IMG/VR virus record: IMGVR_UViG_3300036669_000019
Coordinates: 1-45,108 of that record
DNA length: 45,108 bases
Strand: one strand, 5' to 3'
DNA from: a virus
The notes beneath the pieces are model-generated. The model did not search any database, had not been told where the DNA came from, and was given only the letters and a program-made list of their open reading frames with translations. Positions 3,238-40,776 of the stretch are shown in pieces (position 1 is the first letter of the stretch; the number at the start of each line of letters is the position of its first letter). The position numbers were made by a program, and so were the translations under genes.

Positions 3238-3244
3238 TATTAAA

Positions 3245-3802: not shown

Positions 3803-3849
3803 AAATAACTTTTTTAATTATATACCATAAACATTTTAAGTTTATATTA

Positions 3850-4644: not shown

Positions 4645-4646
4645 GT

Positions 4647-5312: not shown

Positions 5313-5314
5313 GT

Positions 5315-6109: not shown

Positions 6110-6110
6110 T

Positions 6111-6779: not shown

Positions 6780-6780
6780 T

Positions 6781-7293: not shown

Positions 7294-7342
7294 ATTCTTT
7301 TAAACCATTTAAAGTATATATAAAAATAAGATAATGTATTAG

Positions 7343-8014: not shown

Positions 8015-8016
8015 TT

Positions 8017-8811: not shown

Positions 8812-8813
8812 GT

Positions 8814-9605: not shown

Positions 9606-9607
9606 TT

Positions 9608-10276
9608 TTATTCTATTATTTTATAGTGTTTTTTAATTTCTTCTAAGTCAGGCATTTCTAAATCATTATCTTTAATAAAAGTTTGGAGTCTATCTAACAT
9701 AACAGTATCTCTGTTTCTAACTATTTCATAGTCGTTAAAATCTTCTATCATAAAACTATCAGCATTTTTAATAAAAGTATATACTAATAAATATACTGGG
9801 TTTTCAGGCATAACTATACGACCATTTACTTCTGGGAAGTACTCTAAATCTCTTAGCTTATTATTATCACAATTAAAAATGTCTTCTACTACCGATGGAC
9901 AACCTTTCAATGATGTTAATTTATTATTATAACAAAAAAAATGACCACCTACTGTCTGTGGACTACCTTTGAGTGATACTAAATTATTATTATTACAATA
10001 AAAAACACCATCTACTGTCTGTGGACTACCTTCTAATATCTCTAGTTTGTTATTATTACAAAAGAAATAACCACTAACATAATTGAATGTGATGGGTAAA
10101 TATTCTAAGCTTCTGCTATTTAAATAAACATCATCATCAACATCAATGCTTAAATCATCATTAATAGTGTAATTTCTTATATCATATCTTTTACACACTT
10201 TTATAACCTCATCTCTTGTAGTTGGGAAGTTAGGACTAGCACTCTCGAATATTTTATAGGGTTTTATGTGTTTCAT
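9608..10276 (-). CDS. LRR paralogue 5, three repeats
   Basis: A 222-residue member with three repeats, the third diverged (CPSVVEDIFNC). The pre-repeat segment has PITFNYVSGYFFC in place of PLKFNYV. N-terminus MKHIKPYKIFESASPNFP is the family consensus. The cap has PENPVYLLVYTF. Confidence 0.85.
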   Translation of the reverse strand: MKHIKPYKIFESASPNFPTTRDEVIKVCKRYDIRNYTINDDLSIDVDDDVYLNSRSLEYLPITFNYVSGYFFCNNNKLEILEGSPQTVDGVFYCNNNNLVSLKGSPQTVGGHFFCYNNKLTSLKGCPSVVEDIFNCDNNKLRDLEYFPEVNGRIVMPENPVYLLVYTFIKNADSFMIEDFNDYEIVRNRDTVMLDRLQTFIKDNDLEMPDLEEIKKHYKIIE

Positions 10277-10277
10277 T

Positions 10278-10946
10278 TTATTCTATTATTTTATAGTGTT
10301 TTTTAATTTCTTCTAAATCTGGCATTTCTAAACCATTATCTCTAATGAAAGTTTGAAGCCTATCTAACATAACAGTATCTCGGTTTCTGACTATTTCATA
10401 GTCGTTAAAATCTTCTATCATAAAGCTATTGGCTTTTTCGATAAAGGTATATACTAATAGATTTACTGTGTTTTCCTCTATATCTATAATTCCATTTACT
10501 TCTGGGAAGTGTTCTAAGTCTTTTAATTTATTTCTATAACAACTAAAATACCCATTTACTGTTTGTGGACCACCCTCTAGTGTTTCTAATTCATTATTAT
10601 AACAATTAAAATCCCCATTTACCGTTTGTGGACTACCTTCTAATGTCTTTAATTCATTATAACCACAACCAAAATTACCACCTACTGTTAGTGGACTACC
10701 TTCTAACGATACTAATATATTTTCACGACAAAAAAATCCACCACTCACATAATTAAATCTAAGAGGTAGATATTTTAAGTCTTGTATATTTAAATATACA
10801 CTACCACCAACATCGATACTTAAATCATCATTAATAGTATAGTTTCCTATTCCATACCTATTACACACTTGTATAACTTCTTCTCTTGTAGTTGGGAAGT
10901 TAGGACTTTTATTCTCAAATATTTTATAGGGTTTTATATGTTTCAT
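10278..10946 (-). CDS. LRR paralogue 4, three repeats
   Basis: A 222-residue member with three repeats, N-terminus MKHIKPYKIFENKSPNFP. Its first two repeats (ILVSLEGSPLTVGGNF, CGYNELKTLEGSPQTV) are nearly identical to those of the first copy of the array (12415-13083), although two other copies lie between them. This supports non-adjacent gene conversion. Confidence 0.85.
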   Translation of the reverse strand: MKHIKPYKIFENKSPNFPTTREEVIQVCNRYGIGNYTINDDLSIDVGGSVYLNIQDLKYLPLRFNYVSGGFFCRENILVSLEGSPLTVGGNFGCGYNELKTLEGSPQTVNGDFNCYNNELETLEGGPQTVNGYFSCYRNKLKDLEHFPEVNGIIDIEENTVNLLVYTFIEKANSFMIEDFNDYEIVRNRDTVMLDRLQTFIRDNGLEMPDLEEIKKHYKIIE

Positions 10947-10947
10947 T

Positions 10948-11742
10948 TTATTCTATTATTTTATATTCTTTTTTAATTTCTTCCAAATCAGGCATTTCTA
11001 AATCGTTATCTTTAATGAATGTTTGAAGTCTATCTAACATAACAGTATCTCTATTTCTAACTATTTCATAGTCATTGAAATCTTCTATCATGAAGCTATC
11101 AGCATTTTCAATAAAAGTATACACTAGTAAATATACTGTGTTTTCCTCTATATTTATACTACCACTTACTTCGGGGAGGTGTTCTAAGTCTTTTAATTTA
11201 TTATAAGAACAATAAAAATTCCCATTTACTGTTTGTGGACTACCTTCTAATGTCTTTAATTCATTTCTATAACAATTAAAATAACCACCTACTGTTTGTG
11301 GACTACCTTCTAATGATTTTAATTTATTATTACTACAATAAAAATCACCATCTACTGTTTGTGGACAACCTATCAATGATTTTAGTTTATTATTACTACA
11401 ATAAAAACCACCACCTACTGTTTGTGGACAGCCTTTTAATATCTTTAATTTATTAAAATGACAACTAAAATTACCATTTACTCTTTGTGGACAACCTTTC
11501 AATGTTTCTAAATTATTATTAGAACAACCAAAATAACCACTCACATAATTAAATTTAAGTGGTAGATATTCTAAGCCTTTGCCATATAAACGAACATCAC
11601 CATCAACATCAATACTCAAATCATCATTAATAGTGTAATTTTCTATTTCGTAATCTTCACACACTTCTATAACTTCTTCTCTTGTAGTTGGGAAGTTAGG
11701 ACTAGCACTCTCGAATATCTTATAAGGTTTTATATGTTTCAT
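10948..11742 (-). CDS. LRR paralogue 3, five repeats
   Basis: A 264-residue member with five repeats. One has PQRVNGNF and another SLIGCPQTV, otherwise regular. Its cap reads LEHLPEV. N-terminus MKHIKPYKIFESASPNFP. It ends EYKIIE, as does the last copy of the array, where most members end HYKIIE. Confidence 0.85.
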   Translation of the reverse strand: MKHIKPYKIFESASPNFPTTREEVIEVCEDYEIENYTINDDLSIDVDGDVRLYGKGLEYLPLKFNYVSGYFGCSNNNLETLKGCPQRVNGNFSCHFNKLKILKGCPQTVGGGFYCSNNKLKSLIGCPQTVDGDFYCSNNKLKSLEGSPQTVGGYFNCYRNELKTLEGSPQTVNGNFYCSYNKLKDLEHLPEVSGSINIEENTVYLLVYTFIENADSFMIEDFNDYEIVRNRDTVMLDRLQTFIKDNDLEMPDLEEIKKEYKIIE

Positions 11743-11744
11743 AT

Positions 11745-12413
11745 TTATTCTATTATTTTATAGTGTTTTTTAATTTCTTCTAAGTCAGGCATTTCTAAAT
11801 CATTATCCCTTATGAATGTTTGTAGCCTATCTAACATAACAGTATCACTGTTTCTAACTATTTCATAGTCGTTAAAATCTTCTATCATAAAGCTATCAGC
11901 ATTTCTGATAAAGGTATATACTAATAAATTTACTGGGTTTTTATCTATGTTTATAATTCCACTTACTTCTGGGAAGTATTCTAAGTCTTTTAATTCATTT
12001 TCATAACAAAGAAAATCACCACCTACTGTTTGTGGACAACCTTTTAATGATTTTAATTCATTTTTAAAACAAGTAAAACTACTATTTATAGTTTGTGGAC
12101 AACCTTTCAATGATTTCAGTTTATTATTAGAACATTTAAAATCACCATTTATAGTTTGTGGACTACCTTCTAACGATTTTAATTTATTATTTTCACAATA
12201 AAAATTCCAACTCACATAATTAAATTTAAGTGGTAAGTATTCTAAACTTTTAATATATAATCTAACATTACCATTAACATCAATACTTAAATCGTCATTA
12301 ATAGTGTAGTTCTCTATCCTATACTTATCACACACTTCTATAACTTCCTCTCTTGTAGTTGGGAAGTTAGGCTCGACACTCTCGAATATCTTGTAAGGTT
12401 TTATGTGTTTCAT
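11745..12413 (-). CDS. LRR paralogue 2, three repeats
   Basis: A 222-residue member with three repeats, two of which carry PQTIN in place of PQTVG. N-terminus MKHIKPYKIFESVEPNFP. The pre-repeat segment has a Trp (NYVSWNFYC) not seen in the other copies. Confidence 0.85.
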   Translation of the reverse strand: MKHIKPYKIFESVEPNFPTTREEVIEVCDKYRIENYTINDDLSIDVNGNVRLYIKSLEYLPLKFNYVSWNFYCENNKLKSLEGSPQTINGDFKCSNNKLKSLKGCPQTINSSFTCFKNELKSLKGCPQTVGGDFLCYENELKDLEYFPEVSGIINIDKNPVNLLVYTFIRNADSFMIEDFNDYEIVRNSDTVMLDRLQTFIRDNDLEMPDLEEIKKHYKIIE

Positions 12414-12414
12414 T

Positions 12415-13083
12415 TTATTCTATTATTTTATAGTGTTTTTTAATTTCTTCTAAGTCAGGCATTTCTAAATCAAATCCTTCTATGAATGTTTGAAGTCTAT
12501 CTAACATAACAGTATCTCTATTTCTAACTATTTCATAGTCATTGAAATCTTCTATCATAAAGCTATCAGCTTTATAAATAAAGGTATATGCTAAGTGATA
12601 TACTGCGTTTTTATTTATACGTACAAATCCATTCACTTCTGGGAAGTGTTCTAAGTCTTTTAATTCATTATTGACACAATTAAAATTCCCACCTACTGTT
12701 TGTGGACAACCTTTTAATGATTTTAATTCATTATTGTCACAACTGAAATCACCATTTACTGTTTGTGGACTACCTTCTAATGTCTTTAATTCATTATAAC
12801 CACAATCAAAATTACCACCTAGTGTTAGTGGACTACCTTCTAACGATACTAATATATTTTTAAAACAATCAAAACCACCACTCACATAATTAAATCTAAG
12901 TGGTAAGTATTCTAAATTTCTATTATCTAAATAAACAACACCGTCAACATCGATACTCAAATCATCGTTTATGGTATAATTTCTTATATTATATCTTTTA
13001 CACACTTTTATAACCTCATCTCTTGTAGTTGGGAAGTTAGTGCTAGCACTCTCGAATATATTATAAGGTTTTATATGTTTCAT
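12415..13083 (-). CDS. LRR paralogue 1 (first of tandem array), three repeats
   Basis: A 222-residue member and the promoter-proximal gene of the array. N-terminus MKHIKPYNIFESASTNFP; three repeats. A TTAATATATA promoter candidate lies just upstream (13088-13099) and no other gene precedes it on this strand, so the whole cluster may be transcribed from here. It shares repeat blocks with the 10278-10946 copy and a C-terminal variant (IEGFDLEMP) with the 7343-8014 copy. Confidence 0.85.
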   Translation of the reverse strand: MKHIKPYNIFESASTNFPTTRDEVIKVCKRYNIRNYTINDDLSIDVDGVVYLDNRNLEYLPLRFNYVSGGFDCFKNILVSLEGSPLTLGGNFDCGYNELKTLEGSPQTVNGDFSCDNNELKSLKGCPQTVGGNFNCVNNELKDLEHFPEVNGFVRINKNAVYHLAYTFIYKADSFMIEDFNDYEIVRNRDTVMLDRLQTFIEGFDLEMPDLEEIKKHYKIIE

Positions 13084-27069: not shown

Positions 27070-27086
27070 ACTATTTAAATATTATA

Positions 27087-27117
27087 GTTGTATAACCAAT
27101 TATTTATAATACATTTG
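27087..27117 (+). promoter_or_regulatory. Bacteroidota-type promoter of the cas operon
   Basis: GTTG (27087-27090), exactly 19 bases, then TACATTTG (27110-27117). This matches the Bacteroidota housekeeping-sigma pattern TTTG-N19-21-TAnnTTTG except for one base in the upstream box. Transcription would start near 27125, about 20 bases before the cas6 ATG. The phage TTTAATATATA element is absent here. Confidence 0.5.
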
Positions 27118-27145
27118 TCAAAAATATAATATAATCTATTGGTAT

Positions 27146-27922
27146 ATGAAAACTAAAATAAGATTTAAAATAATAGGGCATAATAAAACAATACCCTTTA
27201 ATTACAAAAAGAAAGTGTCTTCTTTATTTCTAAAAATGATAGGAAGCAAGAATAAAGCATTTTCAGATAAGCTACATGATGTAGATTTAATATCACCTTA
27301 TGTTATATCTAATATAAGGTTTGAAAGTGGATACAAGATTGATAGAAAATTAGGATTTGATGTCTCATCTCCTGGATACATATCTATAGAAGTATCATCA
27401 TTTGTTCCTGATATTCATTCTCTATTGAACGGATTAAAGGGAGAGATGTTCCATATAAGTGGTGACAATGATAGAATCTTTTTAAAAGTAGACTATGTGA
27501 GTTGCACTGACGAATCACTAGGTACAAGAGAAGATACTGATATAGTATACAGATCCACATTTAAATCAAATGACTTTTGTTTGCTCAAGGATGGTTATAA
27601 AAAAGGCATTCGTATTTCTTATGAACCACAAGAATTCGCATCTACAGAATTCAAAACTGCTTTCTTCCAAAACTTAATTAAAAAATATGAAAATACACAA
27701 AATACTAAAAGTAATTTTGATGTTAATTCTATGGATATTTTAATGGGATCAACTAGTAGTTCGCTTACTAAGATTAACTTCTCTGGGAAGAACCTAAATG
27801 TAAAAGGATACAAAGTAACTTTTAGTCTAATATGTCCTAATGAATTAAAGGAAGTCGCATATACAAATGGGATTGGTAATTATAACAAGAATCTATTCGG
27901 ATTCGTAAATCTAGTAAAATAA
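27146..27922 (+). CDS. cas6: Cas6 pre-crRNA endoribonuclease
   Basis: A 258-residue Cas6, which cuts the array transcript within each repeat to release crRNAs. Seen: an N-terminal RRM-like start RFKIIGHNKTIPFNYKKKVSSLF, typical of Cas6 (P-x-N-Y motif), a second ferredoxin-like domain, and the C-terminal Gly-rich loop NGIGNYNKNLFGFVNL (about residues 241-256), which in this family contacts RNA. Size is normal. It is the first gene of the operon, and its TAA overlaps the ATG of cas8 by one base. A conserved catalytic His is not obvious without alignment (candidates lie in the first 45 residues). Confidence 0.88.
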   Translation: MKTKIRFKIIGHNKTIPFNYKKKVSSLFLKMIGSKNKAFSDKLHDVDLISPYVISNIRFESGYKIDRKLGFDVSSPGYISIEVSSFVPDIHSLLNGLKGEMFHISGDNDRIFLKVDYVSCTDESLGTREDTDIVYRSTFKSNDFCLLKDGYKKGIRISYEPQEFASTEFKTAFFQNLIKKYENTQNTKSNFDVNSMDILMGSTSSSLTKINFSGKNLNVKGYKVTFSLICPNELKEVAYTNGIGNYNKNLFGFVNLVK

Positions 27923-30030
27923 TGAATGTAGTAGAAGATTTATCAAAGTTTTACAGAGATAACAAAAAGGATATTGATGATAGCTTAAATTTGGGAGATA
28001 AGCTAGGGGGTAATACGTTTGTAATTCTTAATAGTAAGACTTTAGAAGTTAAAGATATATATAAAATGGTAAAGAACAAAGAATATGCCACATGTTCTAA
28101 CCATGACTTATCACTATCAGAAGAAAAATATTTAAATATGTTATATTTATGTTCTAAATATAGCCTAGATAGTGCTAACAATGGCATCCTATCCACTAGT
28201 AAGAAAGTATCGTCAGTAGTACCTGATATATTTAGATTTAGGAATAAGAAAAATGCTAAGGGCATAGGGTTTGTCCAGGAAATAAAAGAAGAAAAATATG
28301 TAAATTTATATTTCACGAACCTATTTACCAATATAACATTTTCAGAAATAATCGGTAAGTTAAAACCAAATGATAAAAAAATAGTCAAAACTATAGTATC
28401 TGATATGTTCTCATCAGTAGATACTATGAAAGAGGAATCAAGAGATAAGTTAAAAGGTTTTGGATTTACAGATAATGATATAAATTATATGCTTTCTTTT
28501 ACAGGATTTTCTAGTAAGATAAATAAAATAGTTTCTAGTTATAAGTATGTTGAAGACACCAATGGGAATGAAGTATTAGAACTTAAAATTGGTGATGATA
28601 CTTGCACACTTTCGACAGAGGAAGATATCTTTTTAGTATTAGATAAGGAAATTGACGATATTAAAGATTCATATAAAAAATATATTGAAGAAAAATTATT
28701 TAGTGCAAAAGGAGTGTTTCAATATACTATTGGAAATAATGCAAATAAGAGGTATAGATTACTAAATACTGATTGCAATTTTCTTGATTCTTTTTATGAT
28801 AAGGCTTTTATGACTAAAGAAACTATTGATACAGTGAGGAATTTTGCCCTTTTTTATGAGATATTTAAACATATTCCTAACAAATATTTATTTATAGACG
28901 GGTGCAATACTTTCCATGATAAATTTAATGAAAAAAATATATCTAATGTAATAAAAAATATGCATGTAGGAACTAAAAAAAATAACTTAAAGGTTTTACA
29001 CCTAAATGCGAAGGGAGATATAGAATTTTACGATAGCATAAGTACTGCTAATATTACTTTTAAATATCAGGAATTCTATACATATACACATGACAAATAT
29101 ATCTTTTCGTTTGACTTAGACACAGTAACATATACTAGATATAATTTATATAGAAGAATTATGGGACTATTAGACCATAAGTATATTAAATTTAATGATG
29201 ACAATAGCAAAACAAGTATACCTTCTACAATATCTAAAAATGATATTATGTTATCTGGTGTAATTGGATCTATAAAGGATGATTTGTATAATTATCTATA
29301 CAAGAATAGTGATAATATTAACATAGCAAGTGTGTTAGACAAAATAGAAAAATTTGTAATCGATAAAAAGTTGTATATGTCAAAGAATGATGGTATATTA
29401 GCAGTCGATAAAATGAGGCTTACTAAAATTTTAGAATTGAATAGAAACATTAAAAATAAATACACAAATATGGGAGATATGAAAAGAAATGCCAAGGCTA
29501 TATATGGCAAGTTTAAAGTAGAATCAATTGATTTAAATACTAGCTTAAACGAGAAAGGACTAGATATTAAAAATAGCAATGAAGAAAAGAATATTTTAAA
29601 GCTTGATAGATGGAAAGAGAGTAAATATGTAAGTTCACTCTACCTAAAAGATTCCTTTGTCGAGGAAAATAAGATTAGTGATAGTGACAAACAAGATATA
29701 AAGCTTTTTTCTTATATATTGGGTGTTGTCATAGGATATGAAACATCACATTCTGTCTCTATTAGTGCACCATCAATTATACATAAATTTAATAATAGAA
29801 CAACAGGAAGCTCGATTACTGAACTTATTAAATTATCATCTAAGTACTCATATTTAAGAGATTCCAAAGACAAAAGTAAGTATGATAGCTTATTTGGATA
29901 CTTACTTAATTTTATACAAGAAGATGGTAAGTCAAATATTAAAATAGATTTCAATTGTACTTTATTAGGAAATGTAGAAACTATGAGTCATTTGTATAAA
30001 ATTCCAAACTACAAAAATAAAAATAAATAA
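27922..30030 (+). CDS. cas8b: Cas8-type Cascade large subunit (Cas8b-like)
   Basis: A 702-residue protein in the position of Cas8b/Csh1 between cas6 and cas7 of a type I-B operon. Large subunits recognise the PAM and stabilise target opening. The sequence is mostly helical at the C-terminus, with FRFRNKKNAKGIGFVQEI near residue 110 and Lys/Asp-rich loops throughout. I see no Cys-x-x-Cys zinc motif, which many Cas8b proteins have. Sequence resemblance to described Cas8 families is weak by eye, so the call rests mainly on operon order and size. It is translationally coupled to cas6 (TAATG). Confidence 0.72.
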   Translation: MNVVEDLSKFYRDNKKDIDDSLNLGDKLGGNTFVILNSKTLEVKDIYKMVKNKEYATCSNHDLSLSEEKYLNMLYLCSKYSLDSANNGILSTSKKVSSVVPDIFRFRNKKNAKGIGFVQEIKEEKYVNLYFTNLFTNITFSEIIGKLKPNDKKIVKTIVSDMFSSVDTMKEESRDKLKGFGFTDNDINYMLSFTGFSSKINKIVSSYKYVEDTNGNEVLELKIGDDTCTLSTEEDIFLVLDKEIDDIKDSYKKYIEEKLFSAKGVFQYTIGNNANKRYRLLNTDCNFLDSFYDKAFMTKETIDTVRNFALFYEIFKHIPNKYLFIDGCNTFHDKFNEKNISNVIKNMHVGTKKNNLKVLHLNAKGDIEFYDSISTANITFKYQEFYTYTHDKYIFSFDLDTVTYTRYNLYRRIMGLLDHKYIKFNDDNSKTSIPSTISKNDIMLSGVIGSIKDDLYNYLYKNSDNINIASVLDKIEKFVIDKKLYMSKNDGILAVDKMRLTKILELNRNIKNKYTNMGDMKRNAKAIYGKFKVESIDLNTSLNEKGLDIKNSNEEKNILKLDRWKESKYVSSLYLKDSFVEENKISDSDKQDIKLFSYILGVVIGYETSHSVSISAPSIIHKFNNRTTGSSITELIKLSSKYSYLRDSKDKSKYDSLFGYLLNFIQEDGKSNIKIDFNCTLLGNVETMSHLYKIPNYKNKNK

Positions 30031-30062
30031 AATTAATACTAAACCTTAAATAAATAAATAAA

Positions 30063-30983
30063 ATGGAAGACAAATTTAAAAACACAATCATTGGAGCAGT
30101 ATCAGTGATAGTAGAAAATTCAAATCATAATAATGATCTTACTGGTCAACCTAGAGCAGTTGATGGGATATTTACCGCATCATCAGCATCTCTTAAAGCT
30201 TATGTTAAGACTATGTTAGTTAGACAAGGAGAGAAGATATTTGGTGTGAAAACAGTTGATAAGAATGGAAAGATAAATGATATTATATCACGAATAGACA
30301 ACTGTGAAATACAGACTACTAGAGACTTTTTTAATTTCCTTGATTTGAAATTCTTTGGACATACTATTCTTCATAGTAAGAAAAGACCAAAATCAGCTAT
30401 TAATGGACCTCTGAACGTAGAATATGGAAAAAACATATTTCGAGAAAATGAGTACACAACACATCAAATTACTGGACCCTTTCCATCTAATAATGGTGAG
30501 GACTCTAATGATGCTGGGACTGTTGGTACTGATGTAAGGGTAGATAAAGCAAATTATCTACATTCATTTACTTTTTCTCCTATGAATATAGAAAGAGATA
30601 CAATTATGCAAACTGATGCTTTTAAAAATGATATACCTTACTTCACTAGTAAAGAAATAGAAATTTTTAAACACGGATTTAGCAACTGTGTCGGTTCAAC
30701 AGTTAATGGATCTTATTCATCTGTTTCTAAATCAGGAACAAAGATAGGTCTTGCAGTTTTTATAACACTAAGAGAAGATTGTAAGTATTCGATAAGTATT
30801 AAAGATAATATAAAGTGTGGTGAAGAATTCAATGAGTATGACTTAACAGATCTTTTTAAGAAGATTGATAAAAACAGAGATTTGATAGAGAGTGTGGATA
30901 TAAGATACACAGAAGATGTGGTTACTTTCACACATGATTTACCAGAAAAAGATAAACTTTATAATATATCTGATAGAGGCTAA
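30063..30983 (+). CDS. cas7: Cas7 Cascade backbone subunit
   Basis: A 306-residue Cas7 of the Csh2/type I-B kind. Several copies line the crRNA. Recognisable segments: SVIVENSNHNNDLTGQPRAV (residues 14-33), SLKAYVKTMLVRQGEKIFGV (about 43-62), LKFFGHT, then NGPLNVEYGKNIFRE and THQITGPFP, which match the DxRxFG and ING-QFSxG-type motifs of Csh2 proteins. A TAAATAAATAAA leader precedes the ATG and serves as a strong Bacteroidota-type start. The 32-base gap from cas8 holds no other element. Confidence 0.88.
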   Translation: MEDKFKNTIIGAVSVIVENSNHNNDLTGQPRAVDGIFTASSASLKAYVKTMLVRQGEKIFGVKTVDKNGKINDIISRIDNCEIQTTRDFFNFLDLKFFGHTILHSKKRPKSAINGPLNVEYGKNIFRENEYTTHQITGPFPSNNGEDSNDAGTVGTDVRVDKANYLHSFTFSPMNIERDTIMQTDAFKNDIPYFTSKEIEIFKHGFSNCVGSTVNGSYSSVSKSGTKIGLAVFITLREDCKYSISIKDNIKCGEEFNEYDLTDLFKKIDKNRDLIESVDIRYTEDVVTFTHDLPEKDKLYNISDRG

Positions 30984-30995
30984 ACGTAAATTATT

Positions 30996-31811
30996 ATGGA
31001 AAAATTAATAAGTATTGACTTATCATCACCATCTTATGGATTCTTCAAAAATCCACAATACAATGGTGAGAAAAATAATAAATCATATTCATATGATAGC
31101 ATTCATAAGCTTGCAATATATGGTTTATTGGGAAGGACAATAGGTTTAAGGGGGATTGGCAACAGTCCCAACCTTTTTCCAGAATACTATGAGAAATTAA
31201 AAGGTATTAAAGTTGGTATTGAGGTTTTAAACACTATTAGAAAGGGGTGGGATAGGACAGTATCATCTTCTGGATTGTACTCGAATGGTCCCGATGGTGG
31301 TGTTAACCTTATTATAGAAAAAAATGTTATTATTTCACCAGAATATAGATTATACCTTAAGTTAGACTTGACTAATAAAATACACGAAGAAATATACAAT
31401 GTTTTTAAGGATAATTTACTATTCTATTTTGGAACTATTTATTTTGGAAATACATCTTATACTGCTCATAGAGAAAATTTCAAAGAATACAGTTTTAGTG
31501 AAGCTGAAAAATTTGAAGGAAAAGTCAAAACATTGTTTAAATCTGATTTTAAAGCACCAACAAGCAGAAGGGGTAACAATTCAAATACTGTTAAGGAAAT
31601 TGGATTCGTGTTTGAAACGAATAAAGAAGTCATCTACGAGAGAAATGTTTCTATACCAGTAGATTATGTACAAATTGGTAAGAACAATATATCATATGGG
31701 GATATTGTTGAATTTAAAATTACAAATAAAAAAATAATTATAGAAAAGGTTGATAGTAGCGAAGAATTATTAAAAATAAATGATACAGAGGATGCAATTT
31801 GTTTACACTAA
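30996..31811 (+). CDS. cas5: Cas5 Cascade subunit (type I-B like)
   Basis: A 271-residue Cas5, an RRM-fold subunit that caps the 5' handle of the crRNA. The N-terminal MEKLISIDLSSPSYGFFKNP, the helix DSIHKLAIYGLLGRTIGLRG (thumb region) and LYLKLDLTNKIHEEIYNVF with YFGTIYFGNTSYTA fit Cas5b (cas5h/Hmari-type) proteins. It starts 12 bases after cas7, and its 3' end overlaps the cas3 frame by 20-32 bases, indicating coupled translation. Confidence 0.82.
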   Translation: MEKLISIDLSSPSYGFFKNPQYNGEKNNKSYSYDSIHKLAIYGLLGRTIGLRGIGNSPNLFPEYYEKLKGIKVGIEVLNTIRKGWDRTVSSSGLYSNGPDGGVNLIIEKNVIISPEYRLYLKLDLTNKIHEEIYNVFKDNLLFYFGTIYFGNTSYTAHRENFKEYSFSEAEKFEGKVKTLFKSDFKAPTSRRGNNSNTVKEIGFVFETNKEVIYERNVSIPVDYVQIGKNNISYGDIVEFKITNKKIIIEKVDSSEELLKINDTEDAICLH

Positions 31812-34389
31812 GTTAAATGATGATTATTTGAATAATGATAAATATATAGCACATACATCATCTTATAAGAAAAGTGAGACATTAAAAGAACACCTAGATA
31901 ACGTTTTAGGTGTTTCTTTTGATTTATATAACACTTATAATATGGATATTGTATTGAATAATATAATAAATAAAATAAATCCAAGTTGGGTTGATGTCAT
32001 CAAAGATCTTTTTTTCTCAACTATATATCTACATGACTATGGGAAAATAAACCCAATGTTTCAGACTAAGTTAGGAAATTCTGCATTTGACTACCAAGTC
32101 AGTGGTAAAAACACACCAAGTTCAATAAAATCAGATAGTGGACACTCAATAATAAGTGTTATTGTTTTTATTGATTATTTTTTCGATAAGTACAAAGATG
32201 AAAGTAAATATGGAAACGCTCTAGACTCTATCATAGTTAAGTTTTCTATGAATATTTTAAAACACCATTCATCTTATATCGATGTCTTTAATGAGGAGAC
32301 ACCTAACTATGATAGATTCAAAACAGCATTTGAGATATTAAGCACAATAGGGTATGAATTTAAAACGCCTGATTTTGAATTTTCTATATTGAAAACTTTT
32401 ATAGGGTTAATAGATTGCTCTAATGAGGAAAATGAGTATATGTTCTATTTGCTTAGACTAAACTATGGAATGCTCACAAAAAGCGATTATATAGCCACCA
32501 CCAACTATATGAACGGTTATAAACATATAGAAAATATAGTTAGTACCGATGATATTAAAGATAAATTCTGGAAAAAAGACAAATTTAAAGATGGTAGTGA
32601 TAACTTCAATTCGAAAATAGACTTAACCACTCTAGATAAAATAAGCAAGACAAGGAGTAATGATAACTTAAATAATCTAAGGTGTCATATGTTATCAGAG
32701 TCTTTATCAACACTAAAAAGTAACATTAAAGAGAATGTATTTTTTCTAGAATGTCCTACTGGTGGTGGTAAAACTAATATTTCGTTTGCCATCATTGATT
32801 CTTTGATTGGTGAATTTGATTTTAAAAAAGTCTTCTATGTATTCCCCTTTAATAAACTTAGTGAACAAACTGAAGAATCTTTTATAAACACCTTTCATCT
32901 TAACCAAAATAAAGTTGTATCTTTGTCTTATGACTCTTATAAAGAGTTAGATGAGACTGTCGTAAATAAGGAAAGTAGTTCATATTCGACAGATACTGTT
33001 AATATGATGAATAATACATTTATGAACTTTCCATATTTACTCATGTCTAATATAAGGTTCTTTGACATGTTGAAAAATAATTCAAAAAAGAGTATGTATA
33101 ATCTACACACTCTATGTAATTCAGTTGTTATTATTGATGAAATACAAGCTTATGACCCATTATTGTGGTCTAAGCTTGTATATTTCATTGATGAGTATGC
33201 TTCTTTATTTAATATAAAGTTTATTATTATGTCTGCGACACTTCCTAAAATAGATACTTTGTTAAAGGAAGATAAAAAGTTTGTAAACTTAATAAGTGAT
33301 AGAAAAAAGTACTTTTTAAATAATAATTTTAAAAGTCGAGTTAGATTTGATGGATCATATTTAAATGAAAAAATGACATCGAGTAGATTAAAAGATTTAG
33401 TTATAGACATTTCTGAAAAATACTATGAAGAGAATGAGACTTCTTATACAATTGTTGAATTTATTTATAAAAAAAGTGCAGGTGAGTTTGTAAATAATTA
33501 TTCAGATCGTTTTAAAAAATATGGATACGAAGTTATGCTTCTATCATCAACAACACTAAAAAGTAAATCTTTTAGAATAATAAAGGATATAAAAACAAAA
33601 AGGTATAAAAAAGTTATATTAGTATGTACACAGACTATTGAAGCTGGTGTTGATATAGATATGGACAATGGGTTTAAAGACACAAGTGTTATAGATTCAG
33701 AAGAACAACTAGCTGGTAGAATAAACAGAAATGCTAGCAAATCTAATAATGTTCTTTACTTAGTCAACTTTGGGAATAAGTTTATTTACAAAACAGATTT
33801 AAGGTATGATGTATTCCCTGAATATGATGATAAATATATACAAGTTCTTAATAGAAAAGACTTTGAAAGTGTTTATGGTAAGATAATGTGTAAGATTAAC
33901 GATAAAGATTCTGGTAATAGCGAAAAGAGTTTAAGTGTTTATATGAGACATTTCAAGAAATTGAACTTTGGTGATATAAATAGAGAAATGGAACTTATTG
34001 ATACATCAGTCAAAAATATGACTATTTTCATACCTATGAAATTACCAATGGATGATGTCAAGCTAGTGATAAAAAACACTTCTAAAATTAAAGGGTTTAT
34101 AATAAATAATCATTTAGATGGTGAAAAGGTATGGGATGAATACCAAACACTTATAAATGCTAAAAGATTTTTAGATATTAAAAAATTACAGAATATAGTT
34201 TCTTTATTTACAACTAATTTATTTATGAGTAAAAATATTGTTAATAACATAACACCTCATCTAGAAGGTGGTGAAGATGATATTATTAAGAAATTAATTA
34301 GCTTAGATTTATATGACTATGATAATGGGTTCGATAATTTAGTATATATCGATAATAGAGATAACGTTGGATTTAATCTAATCGGATAG
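31780..34389 (+). CDS. cas3: Cas3 HD nuclease-helicase
   Basis: An 869-residue Cas3 with intact HD nuclease and SF2 helicase domains, the effector that degrades DNA marked by Cascade. HD domain: EHLDNV (His38), LHDYGK (His85-Asp86), SGHSII (His122) and KHHSS (His162-163). Helicase: Walker A CPTGGGKT (residues 325-332), DEIQ (453-456), SAT (485-487), TQTIEAGVDIDMD (from 618) and QLAGRINR (643-650). All key residues are present, so it should be active. The first ATG lies inside cas5; an ATG at 31792 is equally plausible and removes four residues. The HD-to-helicase order and length are typical of type I-B. Confidence 0.95.
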   Translation: MIQRMQFVYTKLNDDYLNNDKYIAHTSSYKKSETLKEHLDNVLGVSFDLYNTYNMDIVLNNIINKINPSWVDVIKDLFFSTIYLHDYGKINPMFQTKLGNSAFDYQVSGKNTPSSIKSDSGHSIISVIVFIDYFFDKYKDESKYGNALDSIIVKFSMNILKHHSSYIDVFNEETPNYDRFKTAFEILSTIGYEFKTPDFEFSILKTFIGLIDCSNEENEYMFYLLRLNYGMLTKSDYIATTNYMNGYKHIENIVSTDDIKDKFWKKDKFKDGSDNFNSKIDLTTLDKISKTRSNDNLNNLRCHMLSESLSTLKSNIKENVFFLECPTGGGKTNISFAIIDSLIGEFDFKKVFYVFPFNKLSEQTEESFINTFHLNQNKVVSLSYDSYKELDETVVNKESSSYSTDTVNMMNNTFMNFPYLLMSNIRFFDMLKNNSKKSMYNLHTLCNSVVIIDEIQAYDPLLWSKLVYFIDEYASLFNIKFIIMSATLPKIDTLLKEDKKFVNLISDRKKYFLNNNFKSRVRFDGSYLNEKMTSSRLKDLVIDISEKYYEENETSYTIVEFIYKKSAGEFVNNYSDRFKKYGYEVMLLSSTTLKSKSFRIIKDIKTKRYKKVILVCTQTIEAGVDIDMDNGFKDTSVIDSEEQLAGRINRNASKSNNVLYLVNFGNKFIYKTDLRYDVFPEYDDKYIQVLNRKDFESVYGKIMCKINDKDSGNSEKSLSVYMRHFKKLNFGDINREMELIDTSVKNMTIFIPMKLPMDDVKLVIKNTSKIKGFIINNHLDGEKVWDEYQTLINAKRFLDIKKLQNIVSLFTTNLFMSKNIVNNITPHLEGGEDDIIKKLISLDLYDYDNGFDNLVYIDNRDNVGFNLIG

Positions 34390-34443
34390 ATGCGAACATA
34401 TATTATGTGGAGAAAAGTATAAATCTTTAAAAATCGATTGGTA

Positions 34444-34707
34444 ATGAGAATAATATTAGTATATGATATATCAAATCACAAAAATTCAAAAGTAATGAAA
34501 TTATGTCAGATGTGCTTAAACCATGTTCAGAATTCAGTTTTTGAAGGCAAACTTACAGTATCATATCTTAAAGAGTTAATTGAAAAATTGAGGAAGATAA
34601 TAAATAAAGAGAAAGATAGTATATTAATATATACTATCAGTAATCCTAAGTGGATGAATAAAGAAATAATAGGCATTGAAAAAAATGAAATATCTAATTT
34701 TTTATAA
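34444..34707 (+). CDS. cas2: Cas2 (adaptation subunit without Cas1)
   Basis: An 87-residue Cas2 from the ATG at 34444; the frame could start at the TTG at 34438. MRIILVYDISNHKNSKVMKLCQ carries the first strand with the conserved Asp of the Cas2 ferredoxin fold, and HVQNSVFEGKL is the family's hallmark second motif. Cas2 normally bridges Cas1 dimers during spacer integration. In standard type I-B loci the order is cas3-cas4-cas1-cas2; here cas2 follows cas3 after 54 bases and cas4/cas1 are missing. It sits 79 bases from the first repeat, the expected place next to the leader. Confidence 0.88.
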   Translation: MRIILVYDISNHKNSKVMKLCQMCLNHVQNSVFEGKLTVSYLKELIEKLRKIINKEKDSILIYTISNPKWMNKEIIGIEKNEISNFL

Positions 34708-34786
34708 AAATACCTTATCTACGCCTCCCTACATTTTTTTAATAAATTCGTTTGTAATATGTTGTATATCAGTGTGTTACATAAGG
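34708..34786 (+). promoter_or_regulatory. CRISPR leader region
   Basis: A 79-base A+T-rich stretch between the cas2 stop and the first perfect repeat, with an oligo-T tract. Degenerate repeats lie at the opposite end of the array, so this is the leader side. No clear promoter match was found within it. Confidence 0.6.
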
Positions 34787-37700
34787 GTATAATCCTAGCC
34801 ATAATGGCGTTAAAATCAACAATCAATCTGGACAAATTACGAATAACACTATAGTATAATCCTAGCCATAATGGCGTTAAAATTGTAAACGCTATAAAGT
34901 AATGAATATTATCTATCTACTTGTATAATCCTAGCCATAATGGCGTTAAAATTATAAGTCTCAAAGCGAGAAGATGGCAACAATTAAAGTATAATCCTAG
35001 CCATAATGGCGTTAAAATAAGGGTTTCTTTTCGACTAAAAAACTCGAAATAAAAGTATAATCCTAGCCATAATGGCGTTAAAATTTAGAAGCTTTTCGAC
35101 TTACTTCTAATACATAAGTACGTATAATCCTAGCCATAATGGCGTTAAAATAATATTCAATGAAATAATGAAGATAAGAATTACCTCGTATAATCCTAGC
35201 CATAATGGCGTTAAAATAATGGGGAAACCTGTTGTGAGAATCCTTGCGTATTGTATAATCCTAGCCATAATGGCGTTAAAATTCGTAAATCGTGATAGTA
35301 AAAGAGTATAAGAACGGTGTATAATCCTAGCCATAATGGCGTTAAAATTTCGTTTATGAAAGCACAGGAACAATAACAAGATTGTATAATCCTAGCCATA
35401 ATGGCGTTAAAATTAAAGAAGTTAGCTTGGAAGAAATAGCCTTAGCAGCAGTATAATCCTAGCCATAATGGCGTTAAAATCCTGAATTAAAGTTAATCTG
35501 TGTAGGACTTACAGTAGTATAATCCTATCCATAATGGCGTTAAAATTAATCACGTGTGCTTGTTCCCACTTTTCTTTCTTGGGTATAATCCTAGCCATAA
35601 TGGCGTTAAAATGTTACAAAAAACCACTGGCTATACACTAAATGGTTTCGTATAATCCTAGCCATAATGGCGTTAAAATAAGTGTTTAACTTGATTTGAT
35701 TCAATTCAGCTTCTTGTATAATCCTAGCCATAATGGCGTTAAAATTTGTCTTTCCTGTCCCTGTTTCGGCTTGTAAAACTAGTATAATCCTAGCCATAAT
35801 GGCGTTAAAATTAATAGGTGAGTTTGAAAAACAATGGTGTGTAAATGTATAATCCTAGCCATAATGGCGTTAAAATTAATAGGTGAGTTTGAAAAACAAT
35901 GGTGTGTAAATGTATAATCCTAGCCATAATGGCGTTAAAATAGTTGTGTTTGAACTAACATTTACATTAAAATTACGTATAATCCTAGCCATAATGGCGT
36001 TAAAATTCATAGTAAGAATGGATTAGTTAACCAGGATGCTGTTGTATAATCCTAGCCATAATGGCGTTAAAATTGGTTAACCTATCAAACTCATACTTTG
36101 TTATAGATTGTATAATCCTAGCCATAATGGCGTTAAAATAACATAGACTGCATAGTGGTTACACTACTTACATCCCGTACAATCCTAGCCATAATGGCGT
36201 TAAAATTTAGATAAAATAAAAGTACCAAGTAACTATGACCTCGTATAATCCTAGCCATAATGGCGTTAAAATAAGTTATCAACTGCAATCACTCTATATT
36301 TGTATTGTGTATAATCCTAGCCATAATGGCGTTAAAATCTTGTTTATGTATTTCTTTAGCATAATTCATCGACTTGTATAATCCTAGCCATAATGGCGTT
36401 AAAATATCTCTTAATTCATGGGACGTAAGTAACGTGACAAACATGTATAATCCTAGCCATAATGGCGTTAAAATTGGAATTGATGGGGACTATTTTCTAA
36501 AATTCACTGGTATAATCCTAGCCATAATGGCGTTAAAATATGACATTAGCATTAGTTGCTCTAGGATTAGGTTATGTATAATCCTAGCCATAATGGCGTT
36601 AAAATCTTGTAAAAAAGGGGATATTTTTAAAAATAATGATAGTATAATCCTAGCCATAATGGCGTTAAAATCTAATGAACGCAGCTGTTCTGGTTGATAG
36701 AATACCTTGTATAATCCTAGCCATAATGGCGTTAAAATTTTCTTTTGTTTGCATATTTAATTTTTTTGTTTTTAGTATAATCCTAGCCATAATTGCGTTA
36801 AAATATAGAAGAAAATATGATAGAAACTAAAAACAAAGGAGAGTATAATCCTAGCCATAATGGCGTTAAAATTTTAGCTTGCTTTCCTTTCCCTTGTTTG
36901 TGAGTTTCGTATAATCCTAGCCATAATGGCGTTAAAATTTAGATTAATTAACTACATTTCTGTAGTTTAAAGAGGGTATAATCCTAGCCATAATGGCGTT
37001 AAAATCCCACAACTTATTATTTTGAGAGTAAAGGGAAAAATAGTATAATCCTAGCCATAATGGCGTTAAAATGCGGTTGCAGATGGCATTGTTTTTTTTG
37101 GAAGTTACGTATAATCCTAGCCATAATGGCGTTAAAATTAATATTAAGGACTGCTGAAAGTTGACCCATTGCCATGTATAATCCTAGCCATAATGGCGTT
37201 AAAATTTTCTTTTGTTTGCATATTTAATTTTTTTGTTTTTGTATAATCCTAGCCATAATGGCGTTAAAATACGATATATGATATTTTGAATGAAGATGAT
37301 GAACTGTATAATCCTAGCCATAATGGCGTTAAAATCATCGATGGCTCACTGAAGTTTATCCTGAGCTTGACGAGTATAATCCTAGCCATAATGGCGTTAA
37401 AATCCTTTTTTATAGGTTCTATATTTTTTAAATTTCTCCGTATAATCCTAGCCACAATGGCGTTAAAATGTCGTTTTTTATAAGTTTGAACCTTTTTTTC
37501 AACTTGTATAATCCTAGCCATAATGGCGTTAAAATTTTGAATAGGTAGCCTTCACTATATAAAATTCTACATGTATAATCCTAGCCATAATGGCGTTAAA
37601 ATTATCCAAAAAACTGGAATAGAAATATATCACGTACCAGTATAATCCTAGCCATAATGGCGTTAAAATACAGGTGGTTCGTCCTATACAATTACTGGCA

Positions 37701-37802
37701 CAACACAGTATAATCCTAGCCATAATGGCGTTAAAATACTGGTTATGGTAAGACTATGATGGGACTTCTGTGGTATAATCCTAGCCATGATGGCATTGAT
37801 AC
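34787..37802 (+). CRISPR. CRISPR array, leader-side block of 46 repeats
   Basis: Forty-six 30-bp repeats that begin GTATAATCCTAGCC and end ATAATGGCGTTAAAAT, with spacers of about 35-39 bases. The 8-base 3' part GTTAAAAT would be the crRNA 5' handle after Cas6 cutting; GCC/GGC gives only a weak hairpin, as usual for type I-B. Single-base variants occur (for example CTATCC at 35517, GTACAATCC at 36177, AATTGCG near 36790, CCACAATGG at 37440). The last repeat (37773-37802) is clearly decayed (CCATGATGGCATTGAT). Two spacers occur twice: 35812-35846 with 35877-35911 (adjacent), and 36739-36774 with 37206-37240. Confidence 0.98.
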
Positions 37803-37836
37803 TTGTTTACATTAGATACACACTTAGAGAGTTATT

Positions 37837-37869
37837 GCATATGTTTTTAAATATGATGGTGTTAATATA
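37837..37869 (+). repeat. ghost CRISPR repeat
   Basis: The segment ending TATGATGGTGTTAATAT matches the repeat's 3' half at 13 of 17 bases. It sits where a repeat is expected: the distance from 37773 to 37904 is 131 bases, two array units. It is flanked by two spacer-length segments. Confidence 0.55.
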
Positions 37870-37903
37870 ATATAATTTTATATCTTTGTATAAGTTGTAA
37901 CGA

Positions 37904-38663
37904 GTATAATCCTAGCCATAATGGCGTTAAAATTCAACTCCTTCTACTTTTTGTAGCATTTTCCATGGGGTATAATCCTAGCCATAATGGCGTTAAAATC
38001 GTAGTAGAATTTACAGGTATAAAGAAAAAGGTCTTAGTATAATCCTAGCCACAATGGCGTTAAAATAGAATTAAAATAAGGAGTAAAAGAATAATCTCCA
38101 AAAGGTATAATCCTAGCCACAATGGCGTTAAAATGTGAAGTAGATGTAAACATACTTGGTCATATTTTTAAGTATAATCCTAGCCATAATGGCGTTAAAA
38201 TGGTTAAAAGAGAATATATAACAAGGTTTCATTCATATATAATCCTAGCCATAATGGCGTTAAAATCCATTTGTGTTGGAGGTTTAGATAAAATCCATGA
38301 GTATAATCCTAGCCATAATGGCGTTAAAATGTTGTTAAGAAATAAGCTATTGAGTATTTATATATCTCGTATAATCCTAGCCATAATGGCGTTAAAATCT
38401 AAAAGTAATTTAGATACATTATACTCTGAAATGCTTATAATCCTAGCCATAATGGCGTTAAAATCATAAAGAACTCTAAACGTAAATTGATAGAAAGGCT
38501 TGTATAATCCTAGCCATAATGGCGTTAAAATTCGAATAAAACAAATGACGTTTATTTAAATGAGGAGGGTATAATCCTAGCCATAATGGCGTTAAAATTA
38601 TAAAATGCGACTTTGTCTTTACTGACATCCTCAGTATAATCCTAGCCATAATGGCATTATATT
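37904..38663 (+). CRISPR. CRISPR array, distal block of 12 repeats
   Basis: Twelve repeats of the same family, beyond the decayed zone. Variants are more frequent here: CCACAATGG at 38037 and 38105, and changed first bases at about 38237 (ATATAATCC) and 38434 (CTTATAATCC). The final repeat (38634-38663) is truncated or decayed (ATGGCATTATAT), as expected for the trailer end. Open frames across both blocks come from the repeat itself and are not genes. Confidence 0.97.
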
Positions 38664-38719
38664 TACTAGCTATCAATCTATATTAAGGCTATTAAAGACA
38701 ATTGAATAGATTATTTAAT

Positions 38720-38778
38720 AAGTGTTCATTATTTTATCCTGTTCAGTGACACTGAACACTTTAAAATAATGAACACTT
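38720..38778. repeat. nested inverted repeat after the array
   Basis: Outer arms of 17 bp (AAGTGTTCATTATTTTA at 38720-38736, complement at 38762-38778) enclose an inner 19-base palindrome (TGTTCAGTGACACTGAACA, 38740-38758). TGTTCA thus occurs in four half-sites. There is no T-run, so it is not a classic terminator. It could stop array transcription, bind a regulator, or form a cruciform. Confidence 0.8.
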
Positions 38779-38805: not shown

Positions 38806-38818
38806 ATTTAATATATAT
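38806..38818 (+). promoter_or_regulatory. candidate phage promoter element
   Basis: ATTTAATATATAT, 17 bases before the ATG at 38836, opening the structural gene pair behind the CRISPR array. Confidence 0.45.
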
Positions 38819-38835
38819 GTAAAACAATTACATTA

Positions 38836-40776
38836 ATGGCTAAAATCTCTAAATTTGTAAAATTAAATAAAGATATATTATTAGAATATATTTATAATGA
38901 TGCTAACCTACTGAGTGAACCATATAACATATTGGTTAACTCAAAAGATAGGACAACTGGATATTTTTCAACAAGTACATCATCCACTAGCAATACAAAA
39001 ACAAATCAATTATTTAGACTAGATCCAATAGAATCTAAATGGGGTAAGGTAGATGAAAGTAATTATACATTTTTACAAGAAAAAAACTATACTGCATCCT
39101 CACCACTAAGACATGATACAGTTAAAATACATTTACCTATAAATTGGACATTTGGACAATACTTAGGATTTTATGTTAGAATATATGCATTTGATAGGTT
39201 AAATCAAACACAACATGATTTATCAAATTTCTATTTTGATATGACAGATGTTGAACAACAGTATTTACTTAATTTTTCATCACCACCACTTTTATTCCAA
39301 GAGAAACTTTGGGGTAAGAATATTGTATTAGATATACCAGCTTTAAGTGAGGTTTCTACACAATTAACAAATCAAGAACCAACTGAAAATAGTCTTAACT
39401 CTGTTCTTACTAATGGTCTTGGTTTAAATATAAATTCCCCTGTATTTATAGATTTTCATTTTATAAATAAAACTCAGAGAATAAATCAAATAAAGACATA
39501 TTTATTAGAAAGTGCAATTACTACAACAATTCCACAGACACCAGAATTTGAAAAACTAGGTCTTAAAATAGAAAACTCCCCTAATGGTGACTTTTTTGAG
39601 ATTTATGGAACATACAATGGTAATATAGCTGAATTTAAAAGGTTTATAGATGATGCAATACCATTGGGTAACAGATACTATGTACAATACAATATAACGA
39701 TATATGAGCAAAATATAAGGGGCAAAACAACTACTATAACACTTACTAATAACTTCAATGAGACTGTTGAATATAGACCTATTATAAAGTACTCAACCAC
39801 GACTGCTATTATAGATGTAGAACTTAGACTTATAGACTCTGTTGACCAGTCTTATATAATAAGAAGGGCATCATATGGTATGTTACAAGATGAGGTATCT
39901 AAGTATTCTCTTAGAATGACTAAAATAAATATAGCTAATGCATCCAAGCCAAAGGTGTATAATATAAAATCTTCAATAAATCCAGATTTAGTTGGGGTTG
40001 CTAACTCTTTTGGTGTTATACCAATAAACAACACTCCTAAATCACCTATTAGACCTAGAATAACACTAGATGAATTAAATTCAAATAATAACAATGGTGG
40101 CAATAGTGGCGTTATTGTAGAACAAGTTAAAGTACCATTCCCTGTTTTGGTAGATAGGTTTAATATAATGGCTAAATCAGAAAGTTCAGTATTGGACGAA
40201 AGTAGGTTCTATGGATTTGGTAAAATACAAATACTTTTATATCCGTTTGATAATGTAATATCATTCACAATAGCTTCTGGTACTAATGAAAAACCAAAAT
40301 ACCTAGATTTAACAGGTTATTCTGAAATTCTATTTACCATAAAGAACGACAAAACATCAATATCATTCTCTCCTTTTATAGAATCTGGTGAAGTAGACCT
40401 AGCAAATGGTATAGTTGTATTTAAAATAACACAAGGTAAATTCAGTCAAATAAAACAAATATTTACTAGTGGTATAAACGTTTTTTATATAACTGGTACT
40501 AATTCATCAACTACTTCAGTTGTCTATACTGGGTTGTTTAAAATATATGATGATATGAACAATGTTGGGGAATTAAATGATGATATAGAAAATGGTGGAG
40601 TAGAACAAGATGTTGTAACTGAACCAGAGAAGGAAACTGCAATAGTAACTAGAAGAGTTATTAGTGATGGTAATAGACCAATTAAAAAGTCTAGTTCTGC
40701 TAATACACCCAATACTAATAGCAGACCAAATGATGTTAGATTTAGGGATTCTGGTGATGATATATTCAATGAATAA
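38836..40776 (+). CDS. putative virion (tail/baseplate) structural protein
   Basis: A 646-residue protein that I cannot assign to a named family. It is beta-rich throughout, with segments such as HDTVKIHLPINWTFGQYLGFYVRIY, FIDFHFINKTQRI and YYVQYNITIYEQNIRGKTTTI. It has an Asn/Gly-rich linker (NSNNNNGGNSG, about residue 417) and a disordered C-terminus rich in Ser/Asn/Pro. There is no signal peptide or membrane segment. Size, composition, its own late-type promoter element and the following tube-like gene suggest a tail or baseplate component. Confidence 0.6.
   Translation: MAKISKFVKLNKDILLEYIYNDANLLSEPYNILVNSKDRTTGYFSTSTSSTSNTKTNQLFRLDPIESKWGKVDESNYTFLQEKNYTASSPLRHDTVKIHLPINWTFGQYLGFYVRIYAFDRLNQTQHDLSNFYFDMTDVEQQYLLNFSSPPLLFQEKLWGKNIVLDIPALSEVSTQLTNQEPTENSLNSVLTNGLGLNINSPVFIDFHFINKTQRINQIKTYLLESAITTTIPQTPEFEKLGLKIENSPNGDFFEIYGTYNGNIAEFKRFIDDAIPLGNRYYVQYNITIYEQNIRGKTTTITLTNNFNETVEYRPIIKYSTTTAIIDVELRLIDSVDQSYIIRRASYGMLQDEVSKYSLRMTKINIANASKPKVYNIKSSINPDLVGVANSFGVIPINNTPKSPIRPRITLDELNSNNNNGGNSGVIVEQVKVPFPVLVDRFNIMAKSESSVLDESRFYGFGKIQILLYPFDNVISFTIASGTNEKPKYLDLTGYSEILFTIKNDKTSISFSPFIESGEVDLANGIVVFKITQGKFSQIKQIFTSGINVFYITGTNSSTTSVVYTGLFKIYDDMNNVGELNDDIENGGVEQDVVTEPEKETAIVTRRVISDGNRPIKKSSSANTPNTNSRPNDVRFRDSGDDIFNE

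Follow-up and report, generated by a model that had tools for sequence, protein, structure and literature searches.

A probable AbiEi-type operator without its gene in phage genomes, and its possible role as a DNA decoy

A 53-bp element with the layout TGTTCA-N11-TGTTCA-N7-TGAACA-N11-TGAACA, at 38723-38775 of a 45,108-base virus record (the whole of this stretch is called the window here), is very probably an operator of the AbiEi type, because its layout, which recurs in viral and bacterial DNA, lies in bacteria mostly at the starts of AbiEi_2 genes, it follows the plan of the S. agalactiae operator, and the spacer preferences agree between viral and bacterial sites. Judged from the surrounding sequence, it is an orphan, in the window phage and in many others. 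The window has approximately 71% DNA identity to metagenomic phages of 634 and 642 kb. The statement as a whole, that an orphan operator of this type may act as a DNA decoy, is evenly balanced in our judgement.

The operator is contained in a 59-bp nested inverted repeat (38720-38778, delimited by repeat analysis and RNA folding) that is real and far beyond chance. Perfect outer arms of 17 bp, in which 38720-38736 pairs with 38762-38778, enclose a 19-nt palindrome, TGTTCAGTG-A-CACTGAACA, at 38740-38758; the 3-nt strands TCC and CTT between the arms and the palindrome are unpaired (a 3x3 mismatch), and complementarity over the 29-nt arms of the whole repeat is 90%. The half-site TGTTCA occurs on the plus strand at 38723-38728 and 38740-38745 and on the minus strand at 38753-38758 and 38770-38775; the 17-bp arms, the palindrome and the four half-sites bear out a preliminary description of this DNA. 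The four half-sites make up a first 23-bp inverted repeat (38723-38745, plus strand), which has the arm length of the S. agalactiae AbiEi operator, a 7-bp central spacer, GTGACAC (38746-38752), and a second 23-bp inverted repeat (38753-38775, minus strand), a 23-7-23 arrangement that has the two 23-bp inverted repeats and the short gap of an AbiEi operator. The window contains 18 TGTTCA hexamers against 31 expected by chance, 4 of the 18 within the element, and no second copy of the element was found there or in a 141-kb sister contig.

The element begins 57 bp beyond a degenerate final CRISPR repeat (38634-38663, plus strand, outside the operator, located by repeat analysis), and not directly after the last repeat as was first described. 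Between the two, at 38664-38707 on the plus strand, is the decayed 3′ end of the cas3 gene of an alternative cassette found in the phage contig L007 (0 of 2000 shuffles as good). Behind the element, a promoter-like sequence of late type, TTTAATATATATGTAAAAC (38807-38825, plus strand), bears out the promoter noted earlier and is conserved in relatives; it is followed by a backbone gene (38836-40776, plus strand) that was delimited as an open reading frame and encodes a 646-aa protein without a family match. On the other side, from approximately 27070 to 38666, lies a cassette encoding Cas6, a 702-aa protein, Cas7, Cas5, Cas3 and Cas2, followed by the array. By sequence comparison this CRISPR-Cas cassette is not part of the phage backbone; the phage contigs L007, L010 and L011 are approximately 99% identical to the window on both sides and lack it. 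A different cassette of type I occupies this place in L007; it has a Cas7f-like protein, a 289-aa protein, Cas6b, an array and Cas3, and the inverted repeat of L007 begins 1 bp past the cas3 stop codon. The sequence of the right boundary is identical in the three contigs, the inverted repeat is 100% identical in all of them, and exact identity of the window with L007 restarts at 38708, 12 bp from the outer arm. Most distant relatives have no insert; in these, the upstream gene ends in a U-run terminator, and the promoter element that comes directly after it is of the TATATA type. Because near-identical phages keep the site beside a different CRISPR-Cas cassette, the neighbourhood of the array is incidental. 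An element linked to CRISPR is out, since the cassette adjoining the site can be either of two, and other genomes have the site without an array or inside a tRNA array.

The two type I cassettes at one locus (27070-38666 in the window, 2967-9828 in L007) mark a point of defence-cassette exchange. The phage cassette of the window encodes Cas2 (34438-34707; PF09827, E 8e-21), and no Cas1 turned up among those of its proteins that were tested, an odd set for a system that acquires spacers. The segments 3086-5765 and 7634-9883 of L007 hold its small type I system, in which the 289-aa protein has no family match and no Cas8, Cas1 or Cas2 was found among the proteins tested. A search for Cas7 in the viral contigs gave 31 pattern matches, none of which was confirmed. 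Elsewhere in the window, a tandem run of similar-sized genes, alternately of approximately 222 and 264 aa, occupies 3850-13083 on the minus strand; neither of the two genes tested has a family match above the curated cut-off.

The exact 19-nt core was found in 15 viral stretches, 4 of them from the lineage of the window; 8 of the 11 others match the four half-sites and their spacing exactly, 2 are off by one mismatch and 1 by two. When only the layout was searched for and the spacers were left free, at least 119 viral stretches and at least 118 stretches of bacterial genomes were found, and two control patterns, the reversed layout and one with N13 in place of the N11 spacers, had no matches in the viral contigs. 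Grouped by shared sequence, the listed viral sites form 60 clusters. This recurrence of half-sites and spacing in many unrelated genomes strongly supports the binding site for a protein, with several half-sites, that had been suggested for the element. In the viral representatives, the first N11 spacer agrees with the second at only 3.8 of 11 positions on average (8 of 11 in the window), so that most sites have no long hairpin; the fold of the window lineage, at -28.1 kcal/mol, is the third lowest of the 60 representatives, for which the median is -15.0. Half-sites and spacing that stay constant while the spacers vary fit recognition of double-stranded DNA. Less regular sites were also seen: in Maribacter phage Panino one of the spacers between the four half-sites is 12 long, and a short gene annotated as hypothetical overlies the site; partial sites (18/24) were found in the Cellulophaga phages phi19:1, Nekkels_1 and Nekkels_2. 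Searches of the phage collection with the loci L378 and L104 gave no matches. A Vibrio coralliilyticus plasmid (L393, 2501-2553) holds a 22/24 copy of the site with no AbiEi gene listed nearby, and four other Vibrio plasmids have similar matches.

An AbiEi-type gene, detected with an HMM grown from seven of these proteins, is present at 81 of 118 bacterial loci among the matches listed, and in 72 of these 81 the called start of the gene lies within 60 bp of the site. The adjacent gene encodes approximately 320-390 aa; all eight site-adjacent proteins tested belong to Pfam AbiEi_2 (PF09952), both of the next genes downstream that were tested encode AbiEii (PF08843), and on a Hymenobacter plasmid the genes annotated as AbiEi and AbiEii begin at a perfect site. 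In an unbiased check on 247 sampled Bacteroidia genomes, with up to 2 mismatches allowed in the site, PF09952 was found in 15 genomes, the site in 12 and both in 9, the site being at the gene start in all 9; the reversed control pattern was found in none of the 247, and in 3 of the 12 site-bearing genomes the site is an orphan. Among the 6 AbiEi_2 genomes without a site at this threshold, one has only a short gene fragment, one has a clearly degenerate site and the remaining 4 have scattered half-sites, some at a 17-bp step. The preferences at the free positions agree between 59 viral cluster representatives and the 81 bacterial operators (r = 0.80, a value reached by 0 of 5000 position permutations), and the spacers of the window score better on the bacterial matrix than 99.5% of shuffles. 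The phage site is thus like the sequence at AbiEi promoters in half-sites, spacing and spacer preferences. A search of NCBIfam gave no matches, and PADLOC, applied to 6 AbiEi-type and 2 AbiEii-type proteins, gave one weak match only. In the window the element does not lie at an abiEi-abiEii promoter, the next gene being that for the 646-aa protein, and is therefore classed as an orphan site of operator type and not as part of an abiE operon; no AbiEi or AbiEii was found in the sister records G001 and G002.

Some of the bacterial sites away from AbiEi_2 (37 of 118 among the matches listed) are followed by genes for Fic (L183, L189 and L200), DUF6088 (L182), AbiEi_3 (L253), an AAA_21 ATPase (L239) and RhuM (L240); other flanking genes tested encode a type I restriction subunit and an HNH protein, and some are metabolic. 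With sites of this kind away from AbiEi_2, the range of binders may extend beyond that family, and the layout may serve several winged-helix autoregulators of the toxin-antitoxin type. The predicted model of an AbiEi_2 protein (mean pLDDT 90.7) has three parts, of which residues 2-106 are closest to XisH (Z 8.6), residues from approximately 128 to 210 form a winged helix (Z up to 8.6) and the C-terminal part, 221-333, is closest to the nucleotidyltransferase ANT(2′′)-Ia (Z 7.8), values near 8 that may reflect perhaps a common arrangement only. The winged helix and the C-terminal domain that define the AbiEi family are both present, as judged from the PF09952 matches of all eight proteins and from the predicted model. 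Foldseek found no match to the model at E <=0.001, with the Rv2827c/AbiEi chains absent among the 50 matches listed; they are also absent among the matches listed by VIA-align, an absence that excludes nothing, and the best E value in a sequence search of the PDB was 0.019. Residues 1 to approximately 115 of the L212 protein show a D...E-x-K-like pattern in the AbiEi_2 alignment and have a predicted fold close to XisH (Z 8.6); because of this pattern and fold, the AbiEi_2 repressor may carry a nuclease-like N-terminal domain.

In phages the site stands almost always without the gene. AbiEi was found within 6 kb of the site at 1 of 126 exact-site viral loci among the matches listed, the prophage-like contig L083; when 44 viral records, most of them fragments and 38 of them with the site, were searched whole with a profile that included the N-terminal and winged-helix parts, only L083 matched, and AbiEii was found in none of the 44. 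A carrier without the regulator gene, as expected of a decoy, is therefore seen in 43 of the 44 records, and also in the cultured Tenacibaculum phage pT24, whose complete record (234,670 bp) has a 24/24 site at 138768-138820, between BPT24_163 and BPT24_164, and gave no match to AbiEi. A binder encoded by the phage itself is out, with no AbiEi profile match in 43 of 44 records and no widely recurring neighbour gene. Viral sites are mostly intergenic; some overlap with reading frames that were predicted, of which a few are long. The commonest neighbouring gene family occurs in at most 5 of the 60 clusters, and genes start near the site in 24 of the 60 and end near it in 24, as expected if position is immaterial. 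A tRNA gene lies within 20 bp of the site at 28 of 127 viral loci among the matches listed and in 8 of the 60 clusters, one of which is an overlap with a predicted tRNA (L101), where 0.3 are expected for random places in the loci and 0.65 for places within 1 kb; such sites are often wedged between two tRNA genes of an array, 1-9 bp away. This link is suggestive only, because the arrays also hold the non-coding gaps. A literature search, with most subscription papers outside its scope, found no earlier report of such phage sites.

The site is kept unevenly among relatives. It is lacking in 22 of 24 related-phage records and present (<=3 mismatches) only in two sister records; among 9 relatives collected through a neighbouring gene, 5 keep 23-24 of the 24 half-site bases, 2 have degenerate sites with altered spacing and 2 have no site in the DNA covered. 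In a second set of relatives it is kept in 5 near-identical phages and absent in both of the relatives checked, at approximately 58% protein identity; the other 46 loci of this set share part of the protein only, and none reaches 19/24. Within clusters, the mean identity of the spacers is 0.89 and that of the adjoining 12 + 12 bp is 0.77 (39 pairs from 8 clusters), in an ungapped comparison whose pairs are not independent and in which 1 of the 8 clusters is reversed and 1 tied.

Local regulation, in which an AbiEi-type repressor of the host would serve the phage as a roadblock or switch at the element, for example to stop read-through from the CRISPR region or to silence the downstream promoter in AbiE-bearing cells, is unlikely, although in the window and in L007 the site has the CRISPR region on one side and, on the other, the promoter-like element of the 646-aa gene, whose start is 60 bp from the site, and bacterial sites lie at the start of a presumably repressed gene. 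The 60 viral clusters share no common neighbour and show no preference of starts over ends, and promoter control is harder to picture at the many sites 1-9 bp from tRNA genes in arrays. It is distinctly unlikely that a different regulator with the same recognition is meant, whether a Fic, AbiEi_3 or DUF6088 protein acting through its winged helix or a so far unknown regulator that is widespread in hosts. The Fic, DUF6088, AbiEi_3, AAA_21 and RhuM genes behind some bacterial sites speak for one, as do the 25 of 36 searched genomes with such sites in which PF09952 was unmatched and a profile comparison that aligns the winged helix of AbiEi to the C-terminus of Fic (E 5e-4, probability only 30%); AbiEi_2 is nevertheless by far the commonest partner, at 81 of 118 loci among the matches listed and in 9 of 12 genomes of the unbiased sample. 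A functionless relic of an AbiE operon that the phage, or an island in it, formerly carried is quite improbable: L083 has both site and gene, and some members of one phage family have degenerate sites or none, but intact sites occur in unrelated phages and unrelated contexts, AbiEi was unmatched in 43 of 44 viral records and AbiEii in all 44, and the spacers, which are not fixed by the layout, are on average better kept than the flanks in the non-independent comparison given above.

Roles in RNA and in recombination rank below these three and are the least likely. The element folds very stably as RNA (-28.6 kcal/mol against a mean of -7.5 for shuffled sequences; z = -7.9, 0 of 200 shuffles as good), the arms in L007 begin 1 bp after the cas3 stop codon, and the window lacks the U-run terminator found in relatives at the end of the upstream gene, all of which would suit a 3′-end hairpin that terminates or stabilises the CRISPR-cas transcript. 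We regard such a hairpin as very improbable, as a long stem is unusual among the sites, whose N11 spacers mostly pair poorly, and the element recurs away from CRISPR arrays; the RNA stabiliser considered in the preliminary description is unsupported for the same reasons. An intrinsic terminator was rejected, since the stem is followed by CTTTAAAACAACTT and not by a run of T, whereas the terminators of relatives have U-runs; the lack of a U-run had been noted correctly. Evidence for the recombination or replication structure envisaged earlier was sought and none was found. A boundary site for recombination or cassette exchange is scarcely credible, even though identity between phages with different cassettes resumes 12 bp from the outer arm and sites often abut tRNA genes; the left exchange boundary (approximately 27070) has no such element, no protein family, hence no recombinase family, recurs widely beside viral sites, and the bacterial copies lie at AbiEi promoters. 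A mobile element or exchange site was likewise rejected, since neither the window nor the 141-kb sister contig contains another copy and the left boundary has none.

A site that stands without its gene and whose position seems unimportant is most simply read as bound in trans by an AbiEi-type repressor of the host. AbiE is described as a phage-resistance toxin-antitoxin system in which the antitoxin doubles as autorepressor (PMC3985639, the part accessible), and the available portion of PMC7725324 gives tRNAs as the reported or proposed target of its toxin. When the host carries AbiE, every phage genome, replicated copies included, would bind the putative cognate AbiEi-type repressor of the host. 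Repressor drawn off its own promoter would allow more antitoxin to be made, the antitoxin gene being first in the operon; in addition or instead, DNA-bound antitoxin would be protected and kept stable. In either case the AbiEii toxin, an enzyme of the tRNA nucleotidyltransferase type, would not be released during infection. Titration of an autorepressor would, however, derepress the toxin gene too, and the net sign is not obvious. A decoy function in phages, for which we infer host AbiEi binding, titration and a benefit to the phage, is a reading that we place a little short of an even proposition. The wider suggestion that phages without relationship to one another, huge ones and cultured flavobacterial ones from the sea among them, have each acquired a bare 53-bp operator of host toxin-antitoxin repressors and keep it as a protein-free counter-defence decoy, sometimes within tRNA genes, is tentative, and we lean somewhat against it.

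To our knowledge, phage counters to toxin-antitoxin defence known so far are proteins or RNAs. If the decoy reading is true, the widespread orphan operator would amount to a counter-defence, or a means of sensing the host, that consists of nothing but DNA and escapes gene-based searches; decoys embedded among tRNA genes would sit in the class of molecule that the toxin attacks, and AbiE-type systems would be indicated as an important pressure on these phages. The 53-bp layout may serve as a sequence signature for finding more sites, with pT24 as a cultured test case, and AbiEi_2, AbiEi_3, DUF6088, Fic and other toxin-antitoxin or defence genes of bacteria may share one operator layout.

The closest known counterparts are operators of AbiEi itself. 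S. agalactiae AbiEi binds two 23-bp inverted repeats that are 3 bp apart and start with TGTTGCTTTTA, according to the accessible part of PMC3985639; the phage site resembles this operator in its adjacent 23-bp inverted repeats, whose arms start with TGTT followed by a T-rich stretch, and 7 of the first 11 bases are equal. It differs in its gap of 7 bp in place of 3 bp, in having TGTTCA at both ends of each 23-mer, and in its phage carrier without abiE genes behind the site (PMC3985639, same part). The Mycobacterium tuberculosis AbiEi homologue Rv2827c binds paired 23-bp inverted repeats, a feature that the phage site shares; its operator, as the available part of PMC7319586 describes it, lies at its own promoter and has four repeats with 13-bp gaps within the pairs. 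The bacterial AbiEi_2 (PF09952) promoters with the TGTTCA layout equal the phage site in half-sites, spacing and spacer preferences, whereas the phage site has neither the gene nor a fixed position. In synthetic circuits, decoy operators have been built to titrate a repressor that regulates itself (e.g. PMC7505660, in the portion accessible); there, as we propose for the phages, extra sites in trans alter the level of an autorepressor; the phage site would differ from these engineered decoys in being natural and in being aimed, as we infer, at the regulator of a toxin-antitoxin system.
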